In this document: piece after piece, positions 30,403 through 44,262 of the stretch | Layout of the letters: every line of letters starts with the position of its first letter | Position numbering within the stretch: the first letter of the stretch is position 1 | Assembly: GCA_015057525.1 (NCBI GenBank) | Contig: SVEE01000001.1 | Span: 372,001 to 436,000, forward strand | Direction of reading: 5' to 3' | DNA from: Lachnospiraceae bacterium | Lineage (GTDB): Bacteria; Bacillota; Clostridia; Lachnospirales; Lachnospiraceae | DNA length: 64,000 nucleotides | Program-made: the position numbers and the translations under genes | Notes under the pieces: model-generated | Seen by the model: only the letters and a program-made list of their open reading frames with translations | Told to the model about the DNA's origin: nothing | The model's database searches: none

Positions 30403-33400
30403 ATGAAAAAAACATATGGATTATATAAAAAATTAATATGTTTTCAGATAATGGCTGCACTTTTAGTGGGCCTTTTTCTGGTGCCTGAAATTCCTGCCAT
30501 TGCAAAAGACACATTTATGTCAAAATTTATACAAACTGTATACAACCAGAACAATGGCATAGGAAGTAATGAAGTAAACTGTATTTATCAGTCTTCGTCA
30601 GGATATATTTGGTTTGGTACAGATGGAGGATTATATAGGTCTAATGGTTCCAGCTTCCAAAGTATTAACCTTTGGGATACTGATAGAACAGATGTGTACA
30701 CAATTAACTGTATTATTCAGGACAAAGAAGGTCGTATGTGGATTGGTACAGACAATTATGGTCTTTTCTATATAGAAAGTGGAGAGACATATCACCTCCA
30801 GGATGAGTATTACAATGGAATAAAGCAGATTCATGATGTCTGCCAGACAGAAGAAGGAGATATATATGTAGCCACATCTCAAGGTCTTTTTCTTTGCAAC
30901 AAAAATGAAAACGGTAATATGGTACTTAATGCCTATGCTGACAGTGATATAGCCTCCATGGAATTTTCAGAGATTGAATTTTTCAAAGGAAATATCTGGG
31001 CAATTAGTGGAACAGATAAAATATATATTCTTGAAGAAAATGATGTAAGAAATGTTGTTGATACATCAGATATTCTTAGTGATGAACTTACATCTTTAGA
31101 TGTTCAGGGTGAATATATTTACTTTGGTAGTACAGGTCAGAGCATTTTAAGATACAGCAATGTAGGTAAATATAAGATTTTGACAGCTAGCATTGAAGGT
31201 ATCAACAGTGTAATGCAGGATAGTAACGGTTACGTTTGGGTATGTGCAGATAATGGTGTTGGATATTTCTTATCTGAGGGTTCCTTTGTCAAAATTAATG
31301 ATTGTGAAATTGACAGTTATTTGTCTGACATGATACAGGATTACGAGGGTAATTACTGGATATCATCAACACGTATGGGTGTACTTCTGCTTTCAAGAAG
31401 TAAATTTACAGATTTTAATATGTATGTGGGTATGCAGGAGACTATGGTCAATGCTGTTCACATTTATGGTAATCACAAATATATTGGAACAGATGATGGT
31501 CTTATAATATATGATTCAAGTAACGAGCGTATTAATAATGAATTAACTGATATGTTAAATGGTATCAGTGTAAGACATATAACTAATGATTCAAATGGTA
31601 ACATATGGATTAGCACTTATCGTAAATATGGATTAGTAAAGGTTTCTTATAATGGAAGTATCTCATATTATGATAGAGGAGATAATCTCCCTAGCATTGT
31701 TACAAACTGTTCTCTTGTATTACAGGACGGAAGTGTTGCTGTAGGTACTGAGTCAGGTGTGGCAATTATTGGAGCGGATGGTGTTGTAAATGCAACATTC
31801 GAAGAAAAAGACGGAATTACTGCTAGTGTTTCTTGTTTGTATCAAGGAGAAGATAACAAGCTTTATGTAGGTACAGATGGTAGTGGAATATATGCCATAA
31901 CCTTAGGTGTTGAGCCTAAAGTTGAAAATTATACTGTAGATGACGGTTTGAATTCAAATGTTGTAACAACGATAGTAAAGGGTAATGAAGGTATATGGAT
32001 TGGTACTGATAATGGACTTTGTTTCTATAAGGATGCATTTAGAGGAATTAGCAATATTGAATATTCAAACAGTATATATGATGTAATTATTACAGAGGAG
32101 ACATTTTGGATCATAGGTTCTTTGGGTGTGCTAAAGACTACAGAGGAAGAACTTCTTGGAAGTCAAGGTATATCTGGAAGATATTTTGATTCAAACGATG
32201 GTCTCTCAAAAACATTGAATAGTATAAGTAATTCTACTATAGATAAGAACGGAATATTATATGTATGCTGTAATAACGGAATATATACCTTGGATACAAA
32301 TAATATTTACTACAATATTACGCCTCCAAGAATTAAGGTAACGGCTATTGATATAGATGGAGTTACCTATGAGTTTGATGATTTGGCAGATGGTCTTAGA
32401 ATTAAGAGCGATGTGTCAAGAGTTACAATATCCTTTGCAGTGTTTAGCTATGGTAACAGAGAAGATATTCAGGTTGAGTATTCTCTAAATGGTTTTGATG
32501 AACAACCAATTATTATATCTGGCACAGATATGATGCAGGCGGTATACACAAATCTTGATGGTGGAGTGTATGAGTTTGTAATTACAGCTTCAAATGGCGA
32601 CGGAACATTGTGTGAAAGTAAGGTTTCCTTTATTATTGAAAAGGAAAATAGTTTTTTTGAAAATCCAGCGGCCAGAATTGGATTTCTAGTGCTTATTTTA
32701 ATAGCACTTGCTTTAATGATAATTGGTTTCATAATGCTTCAGAAGAAGATTAAGAAGAAAAATATAGCACTTGAGCAGCTTTCTAAGGAGCATGAGGAAG
32801 CTGTTAAGTCAAGTAGTGCTAAAAATGACTATCTTGCAAACATGAGTAACGAGATTAAGACGCCTATAAATGCAATGATGGTTAAGGCAGAAGAGCTTCA
32901 TAACCTTATTGGGGATAACGAAAGTTATAGCGATATAATCAAGAGTATATATAACACAGGTAATGATATTATAGGTAAGGTTGATGATATTATTTTACTT
33001 GCTAAGATTGAAGCAGGTAAGGTTGATATGATAAAAGCACCTTATTCAATATCTACCATGATGTATGACCTTTCGGAAATTGTTATACAGAAAATAGGTG
33101 AGCGTTCGGTTAAGTTCTTTGTTGAAATAGGTGAAAATGTAACCGATATGGTTATTGGTGATTCAGAAAAAATAAAGGATATACTTAAGAGAATTTTAGA
33201 TAATTCCATTAAGTTTACCAAGGAGGGTTCTATTACTCTTTCTGTAGATTGCTATGCTTATGGAGATAAGGCTCACCACGATATAGTTAATGTTGTATTT
33301 ACAATAGCTGATACCGGAATCGGTATTCAGGAAGAGCGATTAGAGAGTCTTTTTGAGATATATAATATTGCAGATAATGTTAAGAATAATCCTCATTCAG

Positions 33401-34677
33401 GAAATGGAGTTGGACTTGCTATTGCTAAGGGTTATGCGGACCTTATGGATGGTGAAATTGAGGTTGAAAGTTCATACGGTGCAGGTTCTACATTTACATT
33501 TACACTTAACCAGAAGGTTACAGACAAATATAACCAGGGTCATGTTGTATCCAAGATAGAGGGTACAGTCTCTAAGGAAACTGCTGAGAAATTGTGGTTA
33601 CCTGAGGTTAATGCTTTGTTGGTGGATGATGATGAGGTAAGTAGAGAGGTGTCTCTTAAAGCACTTTCTCAATTTGAAATGAAGATTGATGTGGCGTCTT
33701 CTGGTGTTAGCGCAATAGATATGGCTTTGAACAATGATTATGATGTTGTGTTCATGGATGTTGCCATGCCGATTATGAATGGCATGGAAGCAATGATGGA
33801 AATAAGGGAATTGGCAGATGTAAAATATAGTATTTTACCGATTATTGCCATGGATACCAATGCTATTGAAGAAAACAAAGAAGAATTGCTTAGTGCTGGT
33901 TTTACAGATAGTGTTCTTAAACCTATGGATATTAAACGAGTGGCTGCCATATTAAAGGATTGTTTGCCTGAGGATAAAATTAAGGAAAAGGCTAACGATA
34001 TAGAGCAGTATATTGAGGAATCAAGATATGGAGAAGGTTTAAATCGATTAAGAGAGTATCTTGATATCGAAGTAGCCATAGGTAAGATAGGTGGAAGTAT
34101 AGATGTATTCAACAAACTTATCGTTGCTTATTACAATCAAAATGCTAATGCTATAGATGAGTTGAAAGAAAAGGTAGGGAAGGATATTAGAGGCTTCAAG
34201 ACTAAGATTCACTCCCTTAGAACAACAAGCATCAATATTGGAGCATATGACTTTGCACATCAGGCATTAAAGATTGAAGCTGCCATAAACATAGGTAATC
34301 GAGAGTATATTAGTAATAACATTGATGAACTTATTGATGAATTATCTACTATAATTCTTGCTGTAGAGGATTACATGGACTTTATTGACGGTTTATCAGG
34401 TGTATCAGATGAAGAATTAAGTCAGCGTAATCAGGCTGAAAAGGAAAGTAAGAAGGAAGAAAAGCAGGTCATTGACTTTACTATTTTGGAATCAATCAAA
34501 TATTCATCTTTGGAGAAAGATTTTGAAGAAGTAGACAAATATATGAATGAACTTGCTGCAAATGAATATAAGGGCGACGACAATGAATTTATTTCAGTGT
34601 TGAAAGAAGCGATAGAGGCTAGAAATATAGAAACCATAGATGAGTTAGTTACAACTTATATGGATTTAAAAATGTAG
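30403..34677 (+). CDS. Hybrid two-component sensor with beta-propeller, HATPase, receiver and HPt; kinase His replaced by Asn
   Basis: A 1424-residue membrane protein. It has an N-terminal signal anchor, then two-component-regulator propeller repeats (about 45-640, many IWIGTDNG-type strands), a Y_Y_Y domain (about 655-745) and a membrane helix (about 757-779). The dimerisation helix reads ANMSNEIKTPINAMM. The phosphoaccepting His of the H-box is Asn816 (codon AAC, 32848-32850). The HATPase has ILDNSIKFT, ADTGIGI and GNGVGLAI. The receiver has DDDE, Asp1119 and LKPMD. A C-terminal HPt domain keeps His1270 in KIHSLRTTS. It resembles hybrid sensors that detect polysaccharides. Autokinase activity in the classical way is doubtful. 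Confidence 0.88.
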   Translation: MKKTYGLYKKLICFQIMAALLVGLFLVPEIPAIAKDTFMSKFIQTVYNQNNGIGSNEVNCIYQSSSGYIWFGTDGGLYRSNGSSFQSINLWDTDRTDVYTINCIIQDKEGRMWIGTDNYGLFYIESGETYHLQDEYYNGIKQIHDVCQTEEGDIYVATSQGLFLCNKNENGNMVLNAYADSDIASMEFSEIEFFKGNIWAISGTDKIYILEENDVRNVVDTSDILSDELTSLDVQGEYIYFGSTGQSILRYSNVGKYKILTASIEGINSVMQDSNGYVWVCADNGVGYFLSEGSFVKINDCEIDSYLSDMIQDYEGNYWISSTRMGVLLLSRSKFTDFNMYVGMQETMVNAVHIYGNHKYIGTDDGLIIYDSSNERINNELTDMLNGISVRHITNDSNGNIWISTYRKYGLVKVSYNGSISYYDRGDNLPSIVTNCSLVLQDGSVAVGTESGVAIIGADGVVNATFEEKDGITASVSCLYQGEDNKLYVGTDGSGIYAITLGVEPKVENYTVDDGLNSNVVTTIVKGNEGIWIGTDNGLCFYKDAFRGISNIEYSNSIYDVIITEETFWIIGSLGVLKTTEEELLGSQGISGRYFDSNDGLSKTLNSISNSTIDKNGILYVCCNNGIYTLDTNNIYYNITPPRIKVTAIDIDGVTYEFDDLADGLRIKSDVSRVTISFAVFSYGNREDIQVEYSLNGFDEQPIIISGTDMMQAVYTNLDGGVYEFVITASNGDGTLCESKVSFIIEKENSFFENPAARIGFLVLILIALALMIIGFIMLQKKIKKKNIALEQLSKEHEEAVKSSSAKNDYLANMSNEIKTPINAMMVKAEELHNLIGDNESYSDIIKSIYNTGNDIIGKVDDIILLAKIEAGKVDMIKAPYSISTMMYDLSEIVIQKIGERSVKFFVEIGENVTDMVIGDSEKIKDILKRILDNSIKFTKEGSITLSVDCYAYGDKAHHDIVNVVFTIADTGIGIQEERLESLFEIYNIADNVKNNPHSGNGVGLAIAKGYADLMDGEIEVESSYGAGSTFTFTLNQKVTDKYNQGHVVSKIEGTVSKETAEKLWLPEVNALLVDDDEVSREVSLKALSQFEMKIDVASSGVSAIDMALNNDYDVVFMDVAMPIMNGMEAMMEIRELADVKYSILPIIAMDTNAIEENKEELLSAGFTDSVLKPMDIKRVAAILKDCLPEDKIKEKANDIEQYIEESRYGEGLNRLREYLDIEVAIGKIGGSIDVFNKLIVAYYNQNANAIDELKEKVGKDIRGFKTKIHSLRTTSINIGAYDFAHQALKIEAAINIGNREYISNNIDELIDELSTIILAVEDYMDFIDGLSGVSDEELSQRNQAEKESKKEEKQVIDFTILESIKYSSLEKDFEEVDKYMNELAANEYKGDDNEFISVLKEAIEARNIETIDELVTTYMDLKM

Positions 34678-37059: not shown

Positions 37060-37929
37060 ATGAAAGGAAGAAAAATATTTGCCTCTGTCAGTTCTAATGT
37101 TGGTACAAGGAAAAAGAAAAATGAGGATAACTTTTATTTAAACGGTGTTACACTGCCAGAAAATAATCCCAAGCATATAATGCAAAGCATTGAATTGGAT
37201 GACGGTGTATTTGCCGTTGCTGATGGAATGGGAGGCATGAGAAGGGGTGAGTTTGCCTCAAAGTGTGCAGTGTCTATTCTTGATAAATTTGTAAAAGAGA
37301 AACCTCTTGATAGCTTGGCCGCTATGGATGAATATGTAGAGCTAGTCAATAGTAAGATATGTGATAAAATTAATGAAACCAAAGAAAAAATTGGAACTAC
37401 AATAACAGTTGTATCAATAAATGATAAGACTGTAAAGATTTATAATGTTGGTGACAGCAGATGCTATTTGTATAGAGATGGCACTTTAACTTTATTATCA
37501 AAGGACCATACTCTTGTATCTCAGCTTGTGGAAATGAATGTTATCACAGCTGAGGAAGCAAAAACCGACAAGAGACGAAACCAGTTATATCAGCATATAG
37601 GAATGATGAAGGATGATGTTATAATTTCACCTTTTGAAGGTCCTGGATTTGAGCTTGCCAAGGATGATATGATTCTTTTGTTTTCAGATGGTGTCACAGA
37701 TGTTATAGATGATGATGAGATTGTTTCAATCATTGAAGAGACAACTAATATAAATAAGCTAACTAATAGATTTTTATACAGAGCATTAAAAAAAGGAACA
37801 AAAGACAATGTGACAGCTATGATTATTAAGTATGCGCCTAGCTCAAAAAGTGCAGAAATATTATCGTGGGTATTAGGTATAGTTATATCAGCTATATTAG
37901 GTATAATTGCAGGATTAATTATAATTTGA
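37060..37929 (+). CDS. Membrane-anchored PP2C-type Ser/Thr phosphatase
   Basis: A 289-residue protein. The PP2C catalytic domain (about 4-250) has metal-binding signatures NEDNFYLNG, VADGMGGMRRGE, VGDSRCYLYRDG, LLFSDGVTDVID and KDNVTAMIIKY. A C-terminal membrane helix (ILSWVLGIVISAILGIIAG, about 267-288) anchors it with the enzyme inside the cell. It is 22 bases upstream of the Ser/Thr kinase, the usual PrpC-PrkC phosphatase-kinase pairing. The C-terminal anchor is unlike soluble PrpC. Confidence 0.9.
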   Translation: MKGRKIFASVSSNVGTRKKKNEDNFYLNGVTLPENNPKHIMQSIELDDGVFAVADGMGGMRRGEFASKCAVSILDKFVKEKPLDSLAAMDEYVELVNSKICDKINETKEKIGTTITVVSINDKTVKIYNVGDSRCYLYRDGTLTLLSKDHTLVSQLVEMNVITAEEAKTDKRRNQLYQHIGMMKDDVIISPFEGPGFELAKDDMILLFSDGVTDVIDDDEIVSIIEETTNINKLTNRFLYRALKKGTKDNVTAMIIKYAPSSKSAEILSWVLGIVISAILGIIAGLIII

Positions 37930-37951
37930 TTTCACTCAGGGAGGAAGGAAC

Positions 37952-40132
37952 ATGTCAAATATTAATGATTTTTCACCACTTTGGGGAGAGTGGCATGTGA
38001 AAGAGCTTCTAGGGAAAGGCTCTTTTGGCGCAGTATACAAAGCAGAAAAACAAGAATATGGGACTACATATACTTGTGCAATAAAGCATATTCAAATTCC
38101 TTTTGAAGGATTTGATGAGGCAAGTATTTTGTCAGAGGGTTTAGCTTCTGACGAAGAATCATTGTCTCAATACTACAAAAAATTATTGAACAAGCTCTTA
38201 ACAGAAATAAATACATGTTATCAGCTTAAAGGTCATACTAATATTGTATCATACGAGGGTCATTCTGTTGTTGAAAGACCAGAAGGTAAGGGATATGATG
38301 TCTTTATTCGTATGGAATATTTAACTTCATTATCTGAATTTATGCGCCAGAATCCTTTTGATGAGCGAGAGGTTGTTAAGCTTGGTATAGATGTATGTAA
38401 TGGTCTCAAGGTTATGGACAAGAGAAACATGATACATAGAGATATTAAGCCAGCTAACATAATGGTTACAGAGGATGGAATATATAAGTTAGGTGACTTT
38501 AGTGAGGCAAGAATGATTACTCAGAATATGGGTAATATGTCCATTAGAGGTACATATAGCTATATGGCTCCCGAAATATTAAAGGGTCAGACTGCAAATA
38601 AAACCGTAGATATATATTCAGTGGGATTGCTTTTATATAGGCTTCTTAACAACAATAAGCCTCCTTTTACAGGTGATGCCAGTGTTAAGCTTACTTCAGA
38701 TTTGTCGGAGCAGTCTAATGCTATGAGATTTAGAGGTGAGGTGTTACCTCCGCCGGCTAATTGCACTAACCAAATACTTTTAAATGCAATTCTTAAAGCA
38801 TGCGAATATAATCCGCATAAGAGATGGCAGAGTGCAGATGAACTGTGTGAACAGCTTCAGTTGGCACTTAAATCTATTGAGAACCCAGGTATGGTTGTTA
38901 ACCCAGCCATGATGAATCAAGGTCAGGCTAATAGCTGGCAGAATCAGGCGATGTCAAGTGGATGGGGACAAATGTCAGCGTCTAACTTTTCAGCCCCAAA
39001 TACAAACTATGGAATACCTAATCAGGCAATGTCCAATCAAGTGATGTCTCTTGGTGGTCAACAGCCAATTCAAAATAATAACCAGATTACTGTACCTAAG
39101 AAGAAAAAATCAGCAGGTGTCATAATTGGTATCATTGTTGCCTTACTTTTGGTTGTAGCTATTACCGTAGGAGTTATTTTACTTACAAGGGATGATTCAG
39201 ATGACAAGGATAAAGACAAGGACGAAGATGTTATTGTGCAGGATGATTCAGAAGAAGATGTAGCTTCTACGGGGGATGCTTCTGATGAAGAGAAAGATAC
39301 AGAAGAGGAAAAGACAGAGGCAACTACAGAAGAAGTAGTTGAAGAATATAGTATGCCATTTTGTGAGAATCAGCCATATGAGCAAATCAAAATGGATTTA
39401 GAAGACATGGGTATGGTTGTCACAGCAACCTATGAATATAACGATAATGTTCAGTCGGGATATGTAATTAGCCAAGGCGTGGCAGAGGGTGTTACTATTC
39501 AGGCAGGAACAGAAATAAGTTTTGTTGTTTCAAACGGCCCAACACCTTGTCCATATGAGTATGAGCAGAAGGTAACAGTTACTGCTGCGTCAGGAAGTAG
39601 TAATGCAACCCTTACATTATACGAATGGCAAAGTGGAGAATGGAAAGCATTGTTTACCTGTGAGGCCAAGGTAGGAGCTAACGGTATTGGTTCTGATTAC
39701 GGTGAAGGTAAGAAGATTACACCTGCAGGAACATTTAAGCTTGGCGTGATATTAACTGATACTCAGCCATCAGGTAATATGCCATATCAGATTGTAAGCT
39801 CGTCAACATGTATTGTTGATGATGTTACTTCACCATTGTACAATATTATTTGTGATACATCTCAGGTTCCTAGTGGAGTGAGCTGTGACACAATTGGTAA
39901 TAATATTACTGGTGGTAAGTTGAGTGCGGCAATATTTATTGAACATAACGGTAATGGATATACATCAGAGAACGTTGTGCCAGGTAGATGTTCAGTTATA
40001 ACAATATGTGGTTGTGAATACAGTCCAATTGCTACAGCAGGTTGTGTAGATATTACATCAACTAGTATGGCAACACTTATGTCATTGTTAAATGCAGATA
40101 AGAATCCATATATTGAATTATATGCGAACTAA
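37952..40132 (+). CDS. Membrane Ser/Thr kinase with one PASTA domain and a C-terminal L,D-transpeptidase-like domain
   Basis: A 726-residue protein. The Hanks-type kinase domain (about 14-305) has GKGSFGAVYKAE, Lys45, catalytic IHRDIKPANIM (Asp164) and LGDFSEAR (DFS instead of DFG). A Gln/Asn-rich linker leads to a membrane helix at about 388-410, then an acidic linker, and one PASTA domain (about 465-531). A final domain (about 535-726) resembles YkuD/L,D-transpeptidase, with TAGCVDIT at Cys698 and ending DKNPYIELYA. The next gene shares this domain. In the His position the fused copy appears to read ICGCE, so activity is uncertain. It probably senses cell wall outside and phosphorylates inside. 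Confidence 0.85.
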   Translation: MSNINDFSPLWGEWHVKELLGKGSFGAVYKAEKQEYGTTYTCAIKHIQIPFEGFDEASILSEGLASDEESLSQYYKKLLNKLLTEINTCYQLKGHTNIVSYEGHSVVERPEGKGYDVFIRMEYLTSLSEFMRQNPFDEREVVKLGIDVCNGLKVMDKRNMIHRDIKPANIMVTEDGIYKLGDFSEARMITQNMGNMSIRGTYSYMAPEILKGQTANKTVDIYSVGLLLYRLLNNNKPPFTGDASVKLTSDLSEQSNAMRFRGEVLPPPANCTNQILLNAILKACEYNPHKRWQSADELCEQLQLALKSIENPGMVVNPAMMNQGQANSWQNQAMSSGWGQMSASNFSAPNTNYGIPNQAMSNQVMSLGGQQPIQNNNQITVPKKKKSAGVIIGIIVALLLVVAITVGVILLTRDDSDDKDKDKDEDVIVQDDSEEDVASTGDASDEEKDTEEEKTEATTEEVVEEYSMPFCENQPYEQIKMDLEDMGMVVTATYEYNDNVQSGYVISQGVAEGVTIQAGTEISFVVSNGPTPCPYEYEQKVTVTAASGSSNATLTLYEWQSGEWKALFTCEAKVGANGIGSDYGEGKKITPAGTFKLGVILTDTQPSGNMPYQIVSSSTCIVDDVTSPLYNIICDTSQVPSGVSCDTIGNNITGGKLSAAIFIEHNGNGYTSENVVPGRCSVITICGCEYSPIATAGCVDITSTSMATLMSLLNADKNPYIELYAN

Positions 40133-40143
40133 GAGGATGAATC

Positions 40144-41037
40144 ATGAGTAAAATCTTAATGAAAATAACTGTATTTTTCTTGGTGTTTACACTGTTTTTT
40201 GTAGGTACAGTTGTTATAGGAAGATATGTAAATAGTGATAAAGATAATGAATCAGAGGATTCTGAGGTTACTGAAGAAGAAAATGTAGAAGAGCCTACTA
40301 CAGTAGCTGATACCCAGGAGGTTGTTATAGATGTTTCTGTAACTGAGGAACCTACGACAGAACAGACAACTGAGTCAACAGAAGATGCGTCTGAAACAGA
40401 TGCATCCTCTGAGGAAGATAATGTTTCTCAGCCTGAGGAATTGACAGCTCTTCTTGCTGAAAGTGGAAGGGATTATACTTCTCTTGAAAGTGTAGGTTGT
40501 AACCAGCTTATAATTGTTGATTCTGAGGCTAATAAGGCATCTATATATATGTACGAAAAAGATGACACAGGCTTATGGGTTAATTGTGGTCTTGATACTC
40601 AGGGCTTTGTTGGAGCTAATGGTGTAAGCTCTGAATCCTATGAAGGAAGTGGAATGACTCCAGCTGGATTTTTCTCTGTAGGCGAAGCCTTCTATATTGA
40701 GGATGAACCAAAGACAGGTCTTAGCAGCTTCCATGTAACAGAAAATACTTACTGGGTAGATGACCCTGATTCACCTTATTACAATCAGAAAGTTGAGCTT
40801 GAAGGTGATCCAGAGTGGGATAGTGCAGAGCATATGATAAGCTACTATGATGCGTACATATATGGCTTTGTTATTAATTTCAATATGGATCCAGTTGTAC
40901 CAGGTAAGGGTTCTGCCATATTTTTCCATGTAGGATATAATTCTACTGCTGGATGTATAGCTGTTTCTCAAGATATGATGCTTCAATACTTGGCTAAGCT
41001 TGATGCTTCTAAAAATCCATATATAATAATGCAATAA
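40144..41037 (+). CDS. Membrane-anchored L,D-transpeptidase (YkuD-like)
   Basis: A 297-residue protein. An N-terminal membrane segment (about 6-27) is followed by a Thr/Glu-rich linker (about 35-100) and a C-terminal catalytic domain (about 103-297). His262 and Cys271 in FFHVGYNSTAGCIAVS match the L,D-transpeptidase HxG...GC motif, and MTPAGFFSVG matches the upstream TPxG motif of the family. It would cross-link 3-3 in peptidoglycan or attach proteins (family knowledge). It lies 11 bases after the kinase gene, which carries a related domain. Confidence 0.82.
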   Translation: MSKILMKITVFFLVFTLFFVGTVVIGRYVNSDKDNESEDSEVTEEENVEEPTTVADTQEVVIDVSVTEEPTTEQTTESTEDASETDASSEEDNVSQPEELTALLAESGRDYTSLESVGCNQLIIVDSEANKASIYMYEKDDTGLWVNCGLDTQGFVGANGVSSESYEGSGMTPAGFFSVGEAFYIEDEPKTGLSSFHVTENTYWVDDPDSPYYNQKVELEGDPEWDSAEHMISYYDAYIYGFVINFNMDPVVPGKGSAIFFHVGYNSTAGCIAVSQDMMLQYLAKLDASKNPYIIMQ

Positions 41038-41045
41038 AAATAGGA

Positions 41046-41072
41046 GGAGTACTTTTAAGAGTACTCCTTTTT
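41046..41072 (+). terminator. Intrinsic terminator after phosphatase-kinase-transpeptidase operon
   Basis: An 8-bp stem GGAGTACT / AGTACTCC with a 6-base loop and five T. Confidence 0.8.
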
Positions 41073-41209: not shown

Positions 41210-42334
41210 ATGAGTGGTATTAATCTTTCACAAAATATAACAAGATTACGCCATGAAAAAAAGATTACCCAAGAACAATTAGCAGATTTTGTTGGTGTTA
41301 CTAAGGCATCTGTTTCAAAATGGGAAACAGGACAAAGTATGCCGGATATTCTGATATTGCCACAGCTTGCTGCATTTTTTAATGTTTCTATTGATGATTT
41401 GATGGGATATGAGCCAAGTCTTACAAAAGAACAGATTGATATGATTTATACAAGTTTGTCCTCTGATTTTGTAACGTTAGGATTTGAAGAGGCTATGGAA
41501 AAAAGTAGACAAATGGTTAAGCAGTATTATTCTTGTTATGAATTTTTGTTTAATATGGCAGTTCTATGGCTTAATCATCATATGCTTGCTGATAGCACGG
41601 AAGAACAACAAAAAATATTACAGGATTTATATGATTTATGTGAGCATATTATGTATAACTGTAATGATATGGAGATGCGTGGAAATTCTTTGTCGATAAA
41701 GGCGTTGGTTGCATTGCAACTTGGAAAAGCATTGGAGACAGTTGATATGCTGGAAGAACAGCTTAATCCCTTAAATCTTATCAATCAGAGTGAAGCGACT
41801 CTTGTTCAAGCCTATCAGGTATTAGGGCAGAATGATAAGGCAAAAAAACATACGCAAATATGCATATATAATCATTTGATACATTTAGTAGGCAATTCTA
41901 CAAATGATTTAGCACTAAATTTTGATAATTTTGAGCGATGTGAAGAGATTATAAGAAGAATTGAAAAAATAGTTGAAGCTTATAATTTATCACAGTTAAA
42001 TCAGGATGTTACGGGTGTTTTTTGGTATCAAGCAGCTATCATGTACTCAATGCATGAAAATAAGCAAAGAGCCATTGAAATGCTTGGTAGATATGTTAGT
42101 GAGATGGAGAGGATATTTAAAAGTGACATTAAATTTAAGCTCAAAAAGGATGATTATTTTACCACAGTTGATACGTGGTTTAATGATACAGATTTAAGAG
42201 GAGGCTTGCCAAGAGATATTAAGGTTATTTGGGAAAGTGCCATGTCTGTTTTTTCTAATCCGGTGTTTAGTGCATATGCAGAAGATGAGGAATTTTGTAA
42301 CTTAAAAGCCAGATTAGGCAGTTTGAAATTATAG
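41210..42334 (+). CDS. XRE-family HTH regulator with TPR-like C-terminal region
   Basis: A 374-residue protein. The N-terminal helix-turn-helix (about residues 8-62) contains LRHEKKITQEQLADFVGVT and VSKWETGQSMPDI. The remaining 300 residues are helical and TPR-like, as in peptide- or partner-sensing regulators. GGAGG precedes ATG 41210. It is followed by a YxlE-like membrane protein and an ABC exporter and probably controls them. Ligand unknown. Confidence 0.85.
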   Translation: MSGINLSQNITRLRHEKKITQEQLADFVGVTKASVSKWETGQSMPDILILPQLAAFFNVSIDDLMGYEPSLTKEQIDMIYTSLSSDFVTLGFEEAMEKSRQMVKQYYSCYEFLFNMAVLWLNHHMLADSTEEQQKILQDLYDLCEHIMYNCNDMEMRGNSLSIKALVALQLGKALETVDMLEEQLNPLNLINQSEATLVQAYQVLGQNDKAKKHTQICIYNHLIHLVGNSTNDLALNFDNFERCEEIIRRIEKIVEAYNLSQLNQDVTGVFWYQAAIMYSMHENKQRAIEMLGRYVSEMERIFKSDIKFKLKKDDYFTTVDTWFNDTDLRGGLPRDIKVIWESAMSVFSNPVFSAYAEDEEFCNLKARLGSLKL

Positions 42335-42369
42335 GATTAAAGTTTATTAAAAAGTAGGAGGATAAAAAT

Positions 42370-42591
42370 ATGTTTGCAACAGATATGATGAATCAGTTAA
42401 AAGATATGTTACCATTTTTAATTCCAATTGTTATAATAGAGATAGTGTTATTTGTGTTAGCACTTAAACATATTCTTACGCATGACACATATAAAAGAGG
42501 AAATAGAACCATTTGGCTTATTATAACAATTGTGTTTATGAATTATGTAGGACCTATTTTATATTTTGTATTAGGAAAAGAGGATTCTTAG
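42370..42591 (+). CDS. PLDc_N domain small membrane protein (YxlE-like)
   Basis: A 73-residue protein with two membrane helices (about 14-33 and 48-67) and the pattern RTIWLIITIVFMNYVGPILYF typical of the phospholipase D N-terminal membrane domain, here without any nuclease. In Bacillus the sigY operon has the same order, YxlE-YxlF-YxlG. The next gene starts one base after its stop. Confidence 0.8.
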   Translation: MFATDMMNQLKDMLPFLIPIVIIEIVLFVLALKHILTHDTYKRGNRTIWLIITIVFMNYVGPILYFVLGKEDS

Positions 42592-42592
42592 A

Positions 42593-43495
42593 ATGGAAAT
42601 ACTTAAGATTAGTAATTTAAGTAAATCATTTGGAAGCAGGAAAATAATTGATGATTTAAGCTTTTCGGTTGAGGAAAACAAGGTATTTGGCTTTATTGGA
42701 CAAAACGGTGCTGGTAAGACCACTACTATGAAGATGATACTTGGCTTACTTAAGGCGGATAGTGGTGAGATAACTGTTTGTGGTGAAAAGGTCAAATTTG
42801 GGCAGACAAAGACCAATCAATTCATAGGTTATTTACCTGATGTTCCTGAATATTACGGCTATATGACTCCTACTGAGTATCTTATGCTATGTGGTGATAT
42901 TACAGGAATAGATAAGAAGGAATTAAAGCAAAGAGTAGAGGAATTATTAAGTCTGGTTGGACTTAACGATGCAAAGAAGAGAATACATGGATTTTCACGA
43001 GGCATGAAACAGAGACTTGGTATAGCTCAAGCCTTACTTGGAAGACCAAAGCTTCTTATATGTGATGAGCCAACATCTGCCCTTGATCCTATAGGAAGAA
43101 AAGAAATTCTTGATATTTTATCAGAGGTAAAGAAAGAAACAACAGTAATATTTTCTACACATATTTTATCAGACGTGGAGAGGATTTGTGACGAGGTAGC
43201 TTTTTTACATGACGGAAAGATTGCGCTTAAAGGAACTATTGAGGAGATAAGAGCCACAAGAAAGGGAACTGACATTGAGATAGAATTCTTTAACCAGATT
43301 GATTGCGACGTGTTTTTTAATGATTTCCCTGCGGCTAAAGCCATCGGTAAAACAAAGCTTGCCTACGACAAAAAGACAGAAGAAGATATTCTAAGTATTA
43401 TGAAATATTTGTCTGATAACAAAATGGCCATACAGCGTATTGAAATGCTAGAGCCTACATTGGAAGATTTATTTGTGGAGGTGGTAGGTAAATGA
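42593..43495 (+). CDS. ABC transporter ATP-binding protein (YxlF-like)
   Basis: A 300-residue ATPase with Walker A GQNGAGKTTTMKM, the signature FSRGMKQRLGIAQAL, Walker B LLICDEPTSALDP and the switch His in IFSTHILSD. The C-terminal extension of about 80 residues is typical of ABC-2 exporter ATPases. It overlaps the permease gene by four bases. The substrate is unknown; antimicrobial or lipid export is common for this type. Confidence 0.92.
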   Translation: MEILKISNLSKSFGSRKIIDDLSFSVEENKVFGFIGQNGAGKTTTMKMILGLLKADSGEITVCGEKVKFGQTKTNQFIGYLPDVPEYYGYMTPTEYLMLCGDITGIDKKELKQRVEELLSLVGLNDAKKRIHGFSRGMKQRLGIAQALLGRPKLLICDEPTSALDPIGRKEILDILSEVKKETTVIFSTHILSDVERICDEVAFLHDGKIALKGTIEEIRATRKGTDIEIEFFNQIDCDVFFNDFPAAKAIGKTKLAYDKKTEEDILSIMKYLSDNKMAIQRIEMLEPTLEDLFVEVVGK

Positions 43496-44262
43496 GACAG
43501 CTTGTTACATTCACAAAAAAAGAATTTGTAGAGTTACAAAGAACAAATAAATTGCTTGTGTTGGGAATAGTTTTCCTTTTGTTTGGAATTATGAATCCTG
43601 CTATAGCTAAGCTTACACCATGGCTTATGGAAACCATGGCAAATGAGCTTGAGAGCTCAGGCATTTTCGTCAAGGAAGTAGTTGTTACGGCTCTTGACTC
43701 GTGGATGCAGTTCTTCAAAAATATTCCTATGGCGGTTATTGTGTTTGTCTTAATGTTTAGTGGCATTTTAACCAATGAATATCAAAAGGGAACCCTGATT
43801 AACATGGTAACCAAGGGACTTTCTAGATGGAAGATTATTGTATCAAAGCTTATTGTTATGCTAGCGGCATGGTCAATTGGTTATTGGATGTGCTTTGGCA
43901 TAACATATGTTTACAATGAGTATTACTGGGATAACAGTATTGCAAAGAACCTTTTACCATCCGTATTTGTGATTTATATTTTGGGAATATGGTTTACTAC
44001 CATGATAATACTATTTTCTAGTATATTCAGAACAAACAGCTCGGTTGCTATTATGACGGCTGTTGTATTTGGTGTTATGTATGTGCTTAGCATGGTTCCT
44101 GATATAGAAAAGTATTTGCCGGTAAAATTGATGGATGCATCTTCGATGCCTATGGGAGTAGGTGCTCCAGAGGATTTTGTTACTGCTTTGATTATTACAG
44201 GAATATGGTCAATTATTAATATATTTGCTGGAATTAAGTGCTTTAACAAAAAGAATTTGTAA
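43492..44262 (+). CDS. ABC-2 type permease (YxlG-like)
   Basis: A 256-residue protein with about six membrane helices. It starts RQLVTFTKKEFVELQRTNK, which is usual for ABC-2 permeases, and has the internal motif TNEYQKGTLINMVTKGLSR seen in this class. It overlaps the ATPase by four bases and ends the operon before a 15-bp terminator. Confidence 0.9.
   Translation: MRQLVTFTKKEFVELQRTNKLLVLGIVFLLFGIMNPAIAKLTPWLMETMANELESSGIFVKEVVVTALDSWMQFFKNIPMAVIVFVLMFSGILTNEYQKGTLINMVTKGLSRWKIIVSKLIVMLAAWSIGYWMCFGITYVYNEYYWDNSIAKNLLPSVFVIYILGIWFTTMIILFSSIFRTNSSVAIMTAVVFGVMYVLSMVPDIEKYLPVKLMDASSMPMGVGAPEDFVTALIITGIWSIINIFAGIKCFNKKNL

Follow-up and report, generated by a model that had tools for sequence, protein, structure and literature searches.

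A YkuD-like domain lacking the catalytic histidine, carried by predicted membrane proteins of Clostridia and often encoded next to an intact L,D-transpeptidase homologue

Which signals the PASTA kinases and related proteins perceive, and by what route the cytoplasm learns about cross-linking, are still open questions in the field. Here we examined 64,000 nucleotides from a Lachnospiraceae bacterium (contig SVEE01000001.1, positions 372,001 to 436,000; this whole stretch is called the window), whose genome amounts to 2.35 Mb in 21 contigs. The subject is a pair of adjacent genes, the first encoding P0001, in which a Ser/Thr kinase, a membrane helix and a PASTA domain are followed by a domain homologous to the YkuD-type L,D-transpeptidases, and the second encoding a standalone YkuD protein, P0002. 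The domain of P0001 lacks the catalytic histidine of the family and, judging from alignments and trees, belongs to one clade of pseudo-L,D-transpeptidases. The best reading of these genes is that a conserved pseudoenzyme-enzyme pair in Clostridia couples the state of the wall, or of L,D-cross-linking, to interchangeable cytoplasmic parts. The observations behind it are homology, loss of the histidine, membership of a single clade, predicted anchoring, pairing with an intact YkuD protein, co-divergence, purifying selection and varied inner domains; the ligand, the direction of signalling and the activities of kinase and partner are proposed from sequence. We see nearly an even chance that the extracytoplasmic pseudo-L,D-transpeptidase serves its membrane protein as a sensor facing the wall and has the adjacent active L,D-transpeptidase as functional partner. 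The elements concerned are the following:

37952..40132, + strand: kinase fusion P0001 (726 amino acids; Ser/Thr kinase, membrane helix, PASTA, histidine-less YkuD-like domain), from its open reading frame, motifs and Pfam matches
39539..40129, + strand: putative pseudo-L,D-transpeptidase domain, residues 530-726 of P0001 (197 residues), related to the standalone family by BLASTP and hhalign
39944..39946, + strand: His665 of P0001, in the motif IEHNG
40007..40009, + strand: Cys686 of P0001 (SVITICG), at the catalytic-histidine position in the ungapped hhalign register
40043..40045, + strand: Cys698 of P0001 (TAGC), aligned with the catalytic nucleophile
40144..41037, + strand: P0002 (297 amino acids), standalone YkuD / L,D-transpeptidase-like partner (PF03734), membrane-anchored (helix 8-26), starting 11 bp past the kinase gene
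40927..40929, + strand: catalytic His262 of P0002 (FFHVG)
40954..40956, + strand: catalytic Cys271 of P0002 (TAGC)

Taken alone, the C-terminal domain of P0001 gave no Pfam match at an E-value of 1 or better, and the gathering score of YkuD (PF03734) was not reached. Its homology is seen in the comparison with P0002 (29% identity over 182 amino acids, BLASTP E 3e-14) and in the hhalign comparison of the histidine-less family with the standalone family (probability 99.6%, E 4.6e-25); in the alignment named A4, YkuD was matched at an E-value of 1 or better by six of the eight members (best 8.8e-5), the domain of the window not being among them. P0002 matches PF03734 with an E-value of 8.6e-8 and 33.3 bits, over the cut-off of 23.4, keeps both His262 and Cys271, and is probably an active L,D-transpeptidase. 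In the hhalign alignment the segment GRCSVITIC lies over GKGSAIFFH with no gap, and Cys686 stands opposite His262 of P0002; in the MAFFT alignments P0001 has a gap at the column of the catalytic histidine, and no histidine appears in either register. Cys698 aligns with the nucleophile Cys271. The open reading frames, Pfam, BLASTP and hhalign bear out what a first-pass annotation had read from the letters of the window, namely a protein with a kinase (HRD Asp164), a helix, one PASTA domain and a YkuD-like C-terminus with Cys698 in TAGC, followed by a gene with the same domain and the full motif, and they agree with its view that the usual histidine is replaced in the fused domain. The comparison with hidden Markov models that it proposed detected PASTA (PF03793) in P0001 and YkuD in P0002 but not YkuD in the fused domain.

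The domain of P0001 differs from the YkuD family, to which it is homologous through P0002, in having neither the catalytic histidine nor a Pfam match and in having invariant residues of its own, such as Gly667 and Gly687. Against the PDB, the profile of the histidine-less family gave a match to 4xzz with an E-value of 0.003 and a weak one to Pgp2 (6xj6) with 0.37, and a broader profile of standalone L,D-transpeptidases matched both entries near 1e-4; P0002 as a single sequence gave no PDB match, and the matches of the standalone profile A5 were confined to its N-terminal low-complexity part. The nearest solved structures by sequence profile are 4xzz, 4y4v and Pgp2 (6xj6, 6xj7), with matches that are weak and lie mainly over the N-terminal strands. 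The entry 4xzz, named 'Conserved hypothetical secreted protein' in the PDB, we take to be Csd6 of H. pylori, and Csd6 (4xzz, 4y4v) and Pgp2 are presumably L,D-carboxypeptidases with a YkuD-type fold. We infer that the C-terminal domain of P0001 has a YkuD fold and is catalytically inactive.

After a first protein search, relatives were collected by a scan of bacterial genome contigs and by profile searches of genomes, which gave 21 distinct loci with the histidine-less domain: the window, 16 further genomes and four further records of the contig scan. The domain occurs in four of 37 genomes of the genus of the window (profile search), in at least 11 of 200 genomes of the family of genome G676 (all but a few of 33 matches were inspected, and the count is a lower bound), in six of 394 genomes of the order of G676 at E 1e-20, and in at least three of 391 genomes drawn from the class (lower bound, from the 30 of 42 matches that came with loci). 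Among 398 genomes drawn from the phylum it was found at E 1e-20 only in the genome of the window, and among 397 drawn from the family no histidine-less domain besides that of the window was seen at the inspected loci (those of 30 matches, out of 74 listed). Viral contigs gave 17 pattern matches and no relative among them.

Residues were counted by alignment of all 99 distinct domains of the loci then collected. The catalytic histidine is present in none of the 19 first-found clade members vs 80 of the 80 other related domains, which came from searches with the clade's own profiles and are near relatives rather than a sample of all YkuD proteins. The nucleophile cysteine is replaced by Asp in 6/19 members of the clade and is Cys in 97% of the 80 domains outside it. 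These counts support the suggestion of a pseudoenzyme, which the fused domain probably is. In a first tree the 19 histidine-less sequences lie on one side of a branch (Shimodaira-Hasegawa-like approximate likelihood ratio test, SH-aLRT, 99.4); when 28 later-found domains were added, L159 and L160, both with Asp at the cysteine site, joined the clade (21 rows, SH-aLRT 99; Asp in eight of 21). The truncated rows L103 and L125 were excluded from the trees. The clade keeps much of the core (Gly575, Gly578, Glu585, Pro591, Gly593, Asp624, Tyr630, Asn631, Asn666, Ser681 and Gly697), is relaxed where the other domains hardly vary (Phe183, Trp204, Tyr238, Tyr240, Ala258 and Phe260 in the numbering of P0002), and has invariant residues of its own that also include Pro719. 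Degenerate L,D-transpeptidase-like motifs were also noticed outside the clade, in L183 (1024-2040, FMYC...DGGIA), L169 (856-2328, VLLRAD...DGEIS) and L167 (1495-2412, the same gene as L124, FLHV...NGGIG); perhaps these are independent losses of catalytic residues.

The neighbor of the histidine-less domain is a recurrent feature. In 14 of the 17 assessable loci among the first 19 (L075 and L111 stop at a contig end), the domain is followed directly, on its own strand, by a gene for a YkuD protein, and all 14 of these proteins keep His and Cys, which upholds the proposed pairing with a neighbor of intact motif; over all 21 loci the partner is adjacent in 14 of 19 assessable. Thirteen of the 14 pairs have intergenic distances between -22 and +11 bp, and in L077 the distance is 341 bp. 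According to the residue at the nucleophile site, partners accompany 11 of 12 assessable Cys forms and three of seven Asp forms. Of 37 genomes in the genus of the window, several of which are incomplete, four contain the two genes together, and in no genome was just one of them detected at E 1e-12; G032 has just an ordinary, distant L,D-transpeptidase. In the tree, the partners of L079 and L115 fall in a clade of L,D-transpeptidases other than that of the main partner group, and the pairing therefore seems to have survived a change of partner. A local tandem duplication as the origin of each pair was rejected, given that the pseudo-domains form one clade apart from the partners.

Identities among pseudo-domains and identities among their partners are correlated (r 0.85, 14 pairs), also when near-copies are removed (r 0.77 over 12 pairs; none of 5000 permutations as high). 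The histidine-less domain is under strong purifying selection: the ratios of nonsynonymous to synonymous substitution rates (dN/dS), informative as a ranking only, are 0.04-0.07 for the pseudo-domain in the comparisons among L002-L004, followed by the catalytic domain of the partner (0.06-0.11), the kinase part (0.08-0.20) and the linker with the helix (0.17-0.24), and between L075 and L076 they are about 0.05 for the pseudo-domain and 0.23 for the N-terminal part. The values for L002-L004 led us to reject a decaying gene as an account of the pseudo-domain.

The inner part, in contrast with the outer pair, varies. Among the 19 first-found members it is of kinase type in nine by Pfam (window, L074, L077, L110, L111, L112 and L002-L004, the last three being close relatives, so that independent cases are fewer than the counts), a zinc ribbon without kinase in seven (that of L114 below the Pfam cut-off) and FHA in one (L113); in the remaining two, L079 and L115, a lipoprotein-like start was seen by eye and no inner Pfam domain was found. 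The kinase is degenerate in L110 (SCE for HRD, NF for DF) and in L112 (SHL for HRD), and only its C-lobe is present in L002-L004. A single hydrophobic helix lies between the inner part and the pseudo-domain in 17/19, and the proteins of the clade are predicted to be membrane-anchored with the pseudo-domain outside. PASTA is found in five of the 19, and PP2C in two of the 21 loci, the window and L077 (phmmer with the PP2C of the window, over 3.5-18 kb of DNA per locus); in L077 it lies about 2.4 kb past the partner gene. PP2C was on this count rejected as a core part. The idea that kinase, PASTA and phosphatase are intrinsic to a self-contained module was not supported, and of the three-gene order expected in other genomes the YkuD neighbor recurs but the phosphatase neighbor does not, beyond these two loci. 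Two loci have arrangements of their own: L077 (4381-11059) holds within 7 kb a kinase-PASTA-pseudo-L,D-transpeptidase gene, a YkuD partner, an ABC ATPase with two FHA domains and a PP2C, and L074 (2174-8756) has three receptor-like genes around one partner, each with a different ectodomain (RCC1-like; PASTA with pseudo-L,D-transpeptidase; zinc ribbon with PASTA and F5/8-type C).

The constant elements are the anchored outer pseudoenzyme and, in most loci, an intact paralogue, and on the simplest reading the dead domain would bind the live one, its substrate or its product, and report inward. The mechanism we propose starts from a YkuD-family domain that would have kept much of its core and lost the catalytic histidine and, in some lineages, the cysteine too. 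The ligand of the pseudo-domain would be a peptidoglycan stem, an L,D-cross-link or the partner, and PASTA would assist in positioning the domain on the wall; binding of the ligand would alter the dimerization and the activity of the kinase, and in the genome of the window the adjacent PP2C would reset the state of the kinase. In the relatives, the same outer pair would be wired to a degenerate kinase, FHA or a zinc ribbon. Binding of a peptidoglycan stem by the fused domain, as the first-pass annotation had put forward, is plausible. The proposal in full is an undescribed envelope signalling system of Clostridia, in which a pseudo-L,D-transpeptidase receptor senses what an active L,D-transpeptidase acts on or makes, or the state it is in, and informs exchangeable parts in the cytoplasm (a Ser/Thr kinase, a pseudokinase, FHA or a zinc ribbon), whereby 3-3 cross-linking would be coupled to phosphorylation in the cell; we advance it tentatively, as possible rather than probable.

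Several findings weigh against the reading of a wall-facing sensor paired with a live enzyme. Kinase motifs are kept in only four of the nine kinase-type members (window, L074, L077 and L111), and kinase output therefore cannot be the general function. The co-divergence of the pairs may be shared vertical descent alone, and the dS behind the selection ranking is near saturation. Loss of the histidine is not specific to the clade: of the 26 later-found domains placed outside it, 24 keep the residue, and it is missing by eye in L183 and L169, which indicates that the loss has happened elsewhere too, the tree position of L169, on a very long branch (2.08), being unsure. Five of the 19 assessable loci (L080, L112, L116, L159 and L160) have no adjacent partner. 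Finally, Cys698 is retained in 13/19, with Cys686 present in all 13 and His665 in ten of these, and such a co-occurrence, needless in a merely dead domain, leaves room for chemistry or for redox or metal binding.

The pseudo-domain could instead be mainly a regulatory subunit that controls or localizes L,D-cross-linking by the active partner, the cytoplasmic part signalling inside-out or merely serving as an anchor. Nothing in the loci is as constant as the pairing, which appears from L079 and L115 to be kept through replacement of the partner, while the inner domains differ and have in many cases degenerated, so that control of the partner may outweigh signalling. Nevertheless, besides the five pseudo-domains that stand without an adjacent partner, L,D-transpeptidases of the partner type occur in the genomes of L087, L117 and L119, where no pseudo-domain gene was detected, and we regard this alternative as unlikely, if well worth keeping in view.

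The cysteines and His665 bear on two further alternatives. Catalysis may have been relocated, Cys698 with Cys686 and/or His665 forming a new active center for a different acyl-transfer or hydrolytic reaction. Within the clade His665 is seen only together with a cysteine at the nucleophile site (10/10, vs none of the eight Asp forms among the 21 members), an association made weaker than its count by the relatedness of the rows, and Cys686 accompanies Cys698 in 13/13; however, three members with this cysteine (L112, L113 and L114) have no His665, and the nucleophile is Asp in eight of the 21; we hold the idea to be improbable. The same three residues could instead form a disulfide or bind a metal where the active pocket used to be, and the domain could be a redox or metal sensor: the two cysteines co-occur strictly, with His665 beside them in 10/13, and both are changed in L077, to Arg and Asp. 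The full site is however missing in eight of the 21 members despite a similar overall architecture, and Cys686 is kept in three Asp forms; we consider such a sensor even less probable than a relocated active center.

A sensing role for the pseudo-domain would matter in several respects. With a dead copy of a cross-linking enzyme as ectodomain and the live copy kept next to it, the possible ligands would form a defined set open to testing (tri- and tetrapeptide stems, 3-3 cross-links and the partner), the exchange of inner domains seen in nature reveals which part is constant, and the pairing of pseudoenzyme and enzyme would be extended to the L,D-transpeptidase family. A recurring pair of a disarmed and a working copy with varied inner signalling parts suggests a little-known way of sensing the cell wall. 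In the open-access papers searched, supplements aside, no description was found of YkuD joined to PASTA with or without a kinase, of a transpeptidase pseudoenzyme or of a noncatalytic YkuD domain. The words 'transpeptidase', 'YkuD' and 'ErfK' do not occur in the main text of two surveys of bacterial kinase architectures (PMC1262709, PMC2877116), nor 'transpeptidase' in a review (PMC4601284). A non-enzymatic role of an L,D-transpeptidase is described for LdtJ of Acinetobacter baumannii, in which the inactive mutant C390S still restores fitness and the role in growth persists after deletion of the YkuD domain; LdtJ differs in that it is enzymatically active and contains a peptidoglycan-binding domain, with no kinase among its listed domains (PMC12548408).

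The remaining parts of P0001 are located as follows:

37991..38848, + strand: kinase domain, residues 14-299 (PF00069, 4.1e-39; motif alignment)
39122..39178, + strand: membrane helix, residues 391-409 (hydropathy scan)
39353..39535, + strand: single PASTA domain, residues 468-528 (PF03793, 4.8e-9)

The kinase looks intact by its motifs and may be active: the G-loop (21-26), Lys45, Asp164 of HRD, Asn169 and Asp182 are kept, the last within DFS and not DFG. The helix is flanked by KKKK toward the kinase and by acidic residues on the opposite side. P0001 resembles the PASTA kinases (Stk1/PrkC/PknB) in its kinase, its one helix, its outer PASTA and the PP2C alongside, and differs from them in that its ectodomain does not end in PASTA, a single one being followed by the 197 residues of the other domain, and in that it scores 174.8 bits with the Stk1/PknB model NF033483, under the whole-protein cut-off of 450. 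The genome has a second PASTA kinase (G000:C6:308708-311026, equivalent to L040 4709-7027; 772 amino acids, three PASTA domains), whose gene is preceded by a PP2C-like gene, as judged by eye; from this, the kinase of the window is an additional one. It is very improbable that P0001 belongs to a kinase-based anti-phage defense of the PD-T4-6 or MADS6 type. PADLOC models do match it (mad6 7.2e-53, PD-T4-6 9.3e-47), but it matches 34 PADLOC families, of which the 25 listed look like general kinase models, its score with the NCBIfam MAD6 model is 105.8 bits vs a cut-off of 460, P0002 matches no PADLOC family, and P0003 matches just one, weakly. A defense assignment was rejected, the PADLOC matches being taken as cross-matching of kinase models.

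On the + strand of the window the order is trpB, trpA (both named by eye), PP2C, kinase fusion and YkuD gene, with gaps of 44, 22 and 11 bp after trpA. Two further features belong to this region:

37060..37929, + strand: PP2C-type phosphatase (289 amino acids) with a C-terminal hydrophobic stretch; PF00481 5.4e-21 (75.8 bits, which passes); GGAGG precedes the start, 44 bp past the trpA-like open reading frame
41045..41068, strand not assigned: hairpin of nine pairs followed by TTTTT on the + strand; listed by the scan on the - strand only, the + tail being read separately

The phosphatase scores 182 bits with the Stp1/PrpC model NF033484, under the cut-off of 230, and the hairpin with its TTTTT may be the end of the operon. 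Elsewhere in the window, positions 30403-34677 encode a protein of 1424 residues that by eye resembles a hybrid sensor of the two-component type, with a region on the outside that looks like a beta-propeller. Past the YkuD gene, positions 41210-44262 carry an HTH+TPR regulator (41210-42334), an ABC ATPase and a permease. Counterparts of these genes stand in the same order, possibly by chance, beside a divergent pseudo-L,D-transpeptidase in L192 (773-3790), where the regulator is 30% identical to that of the window along its length (E 4e-59) and the ABC genes were matched by eye.

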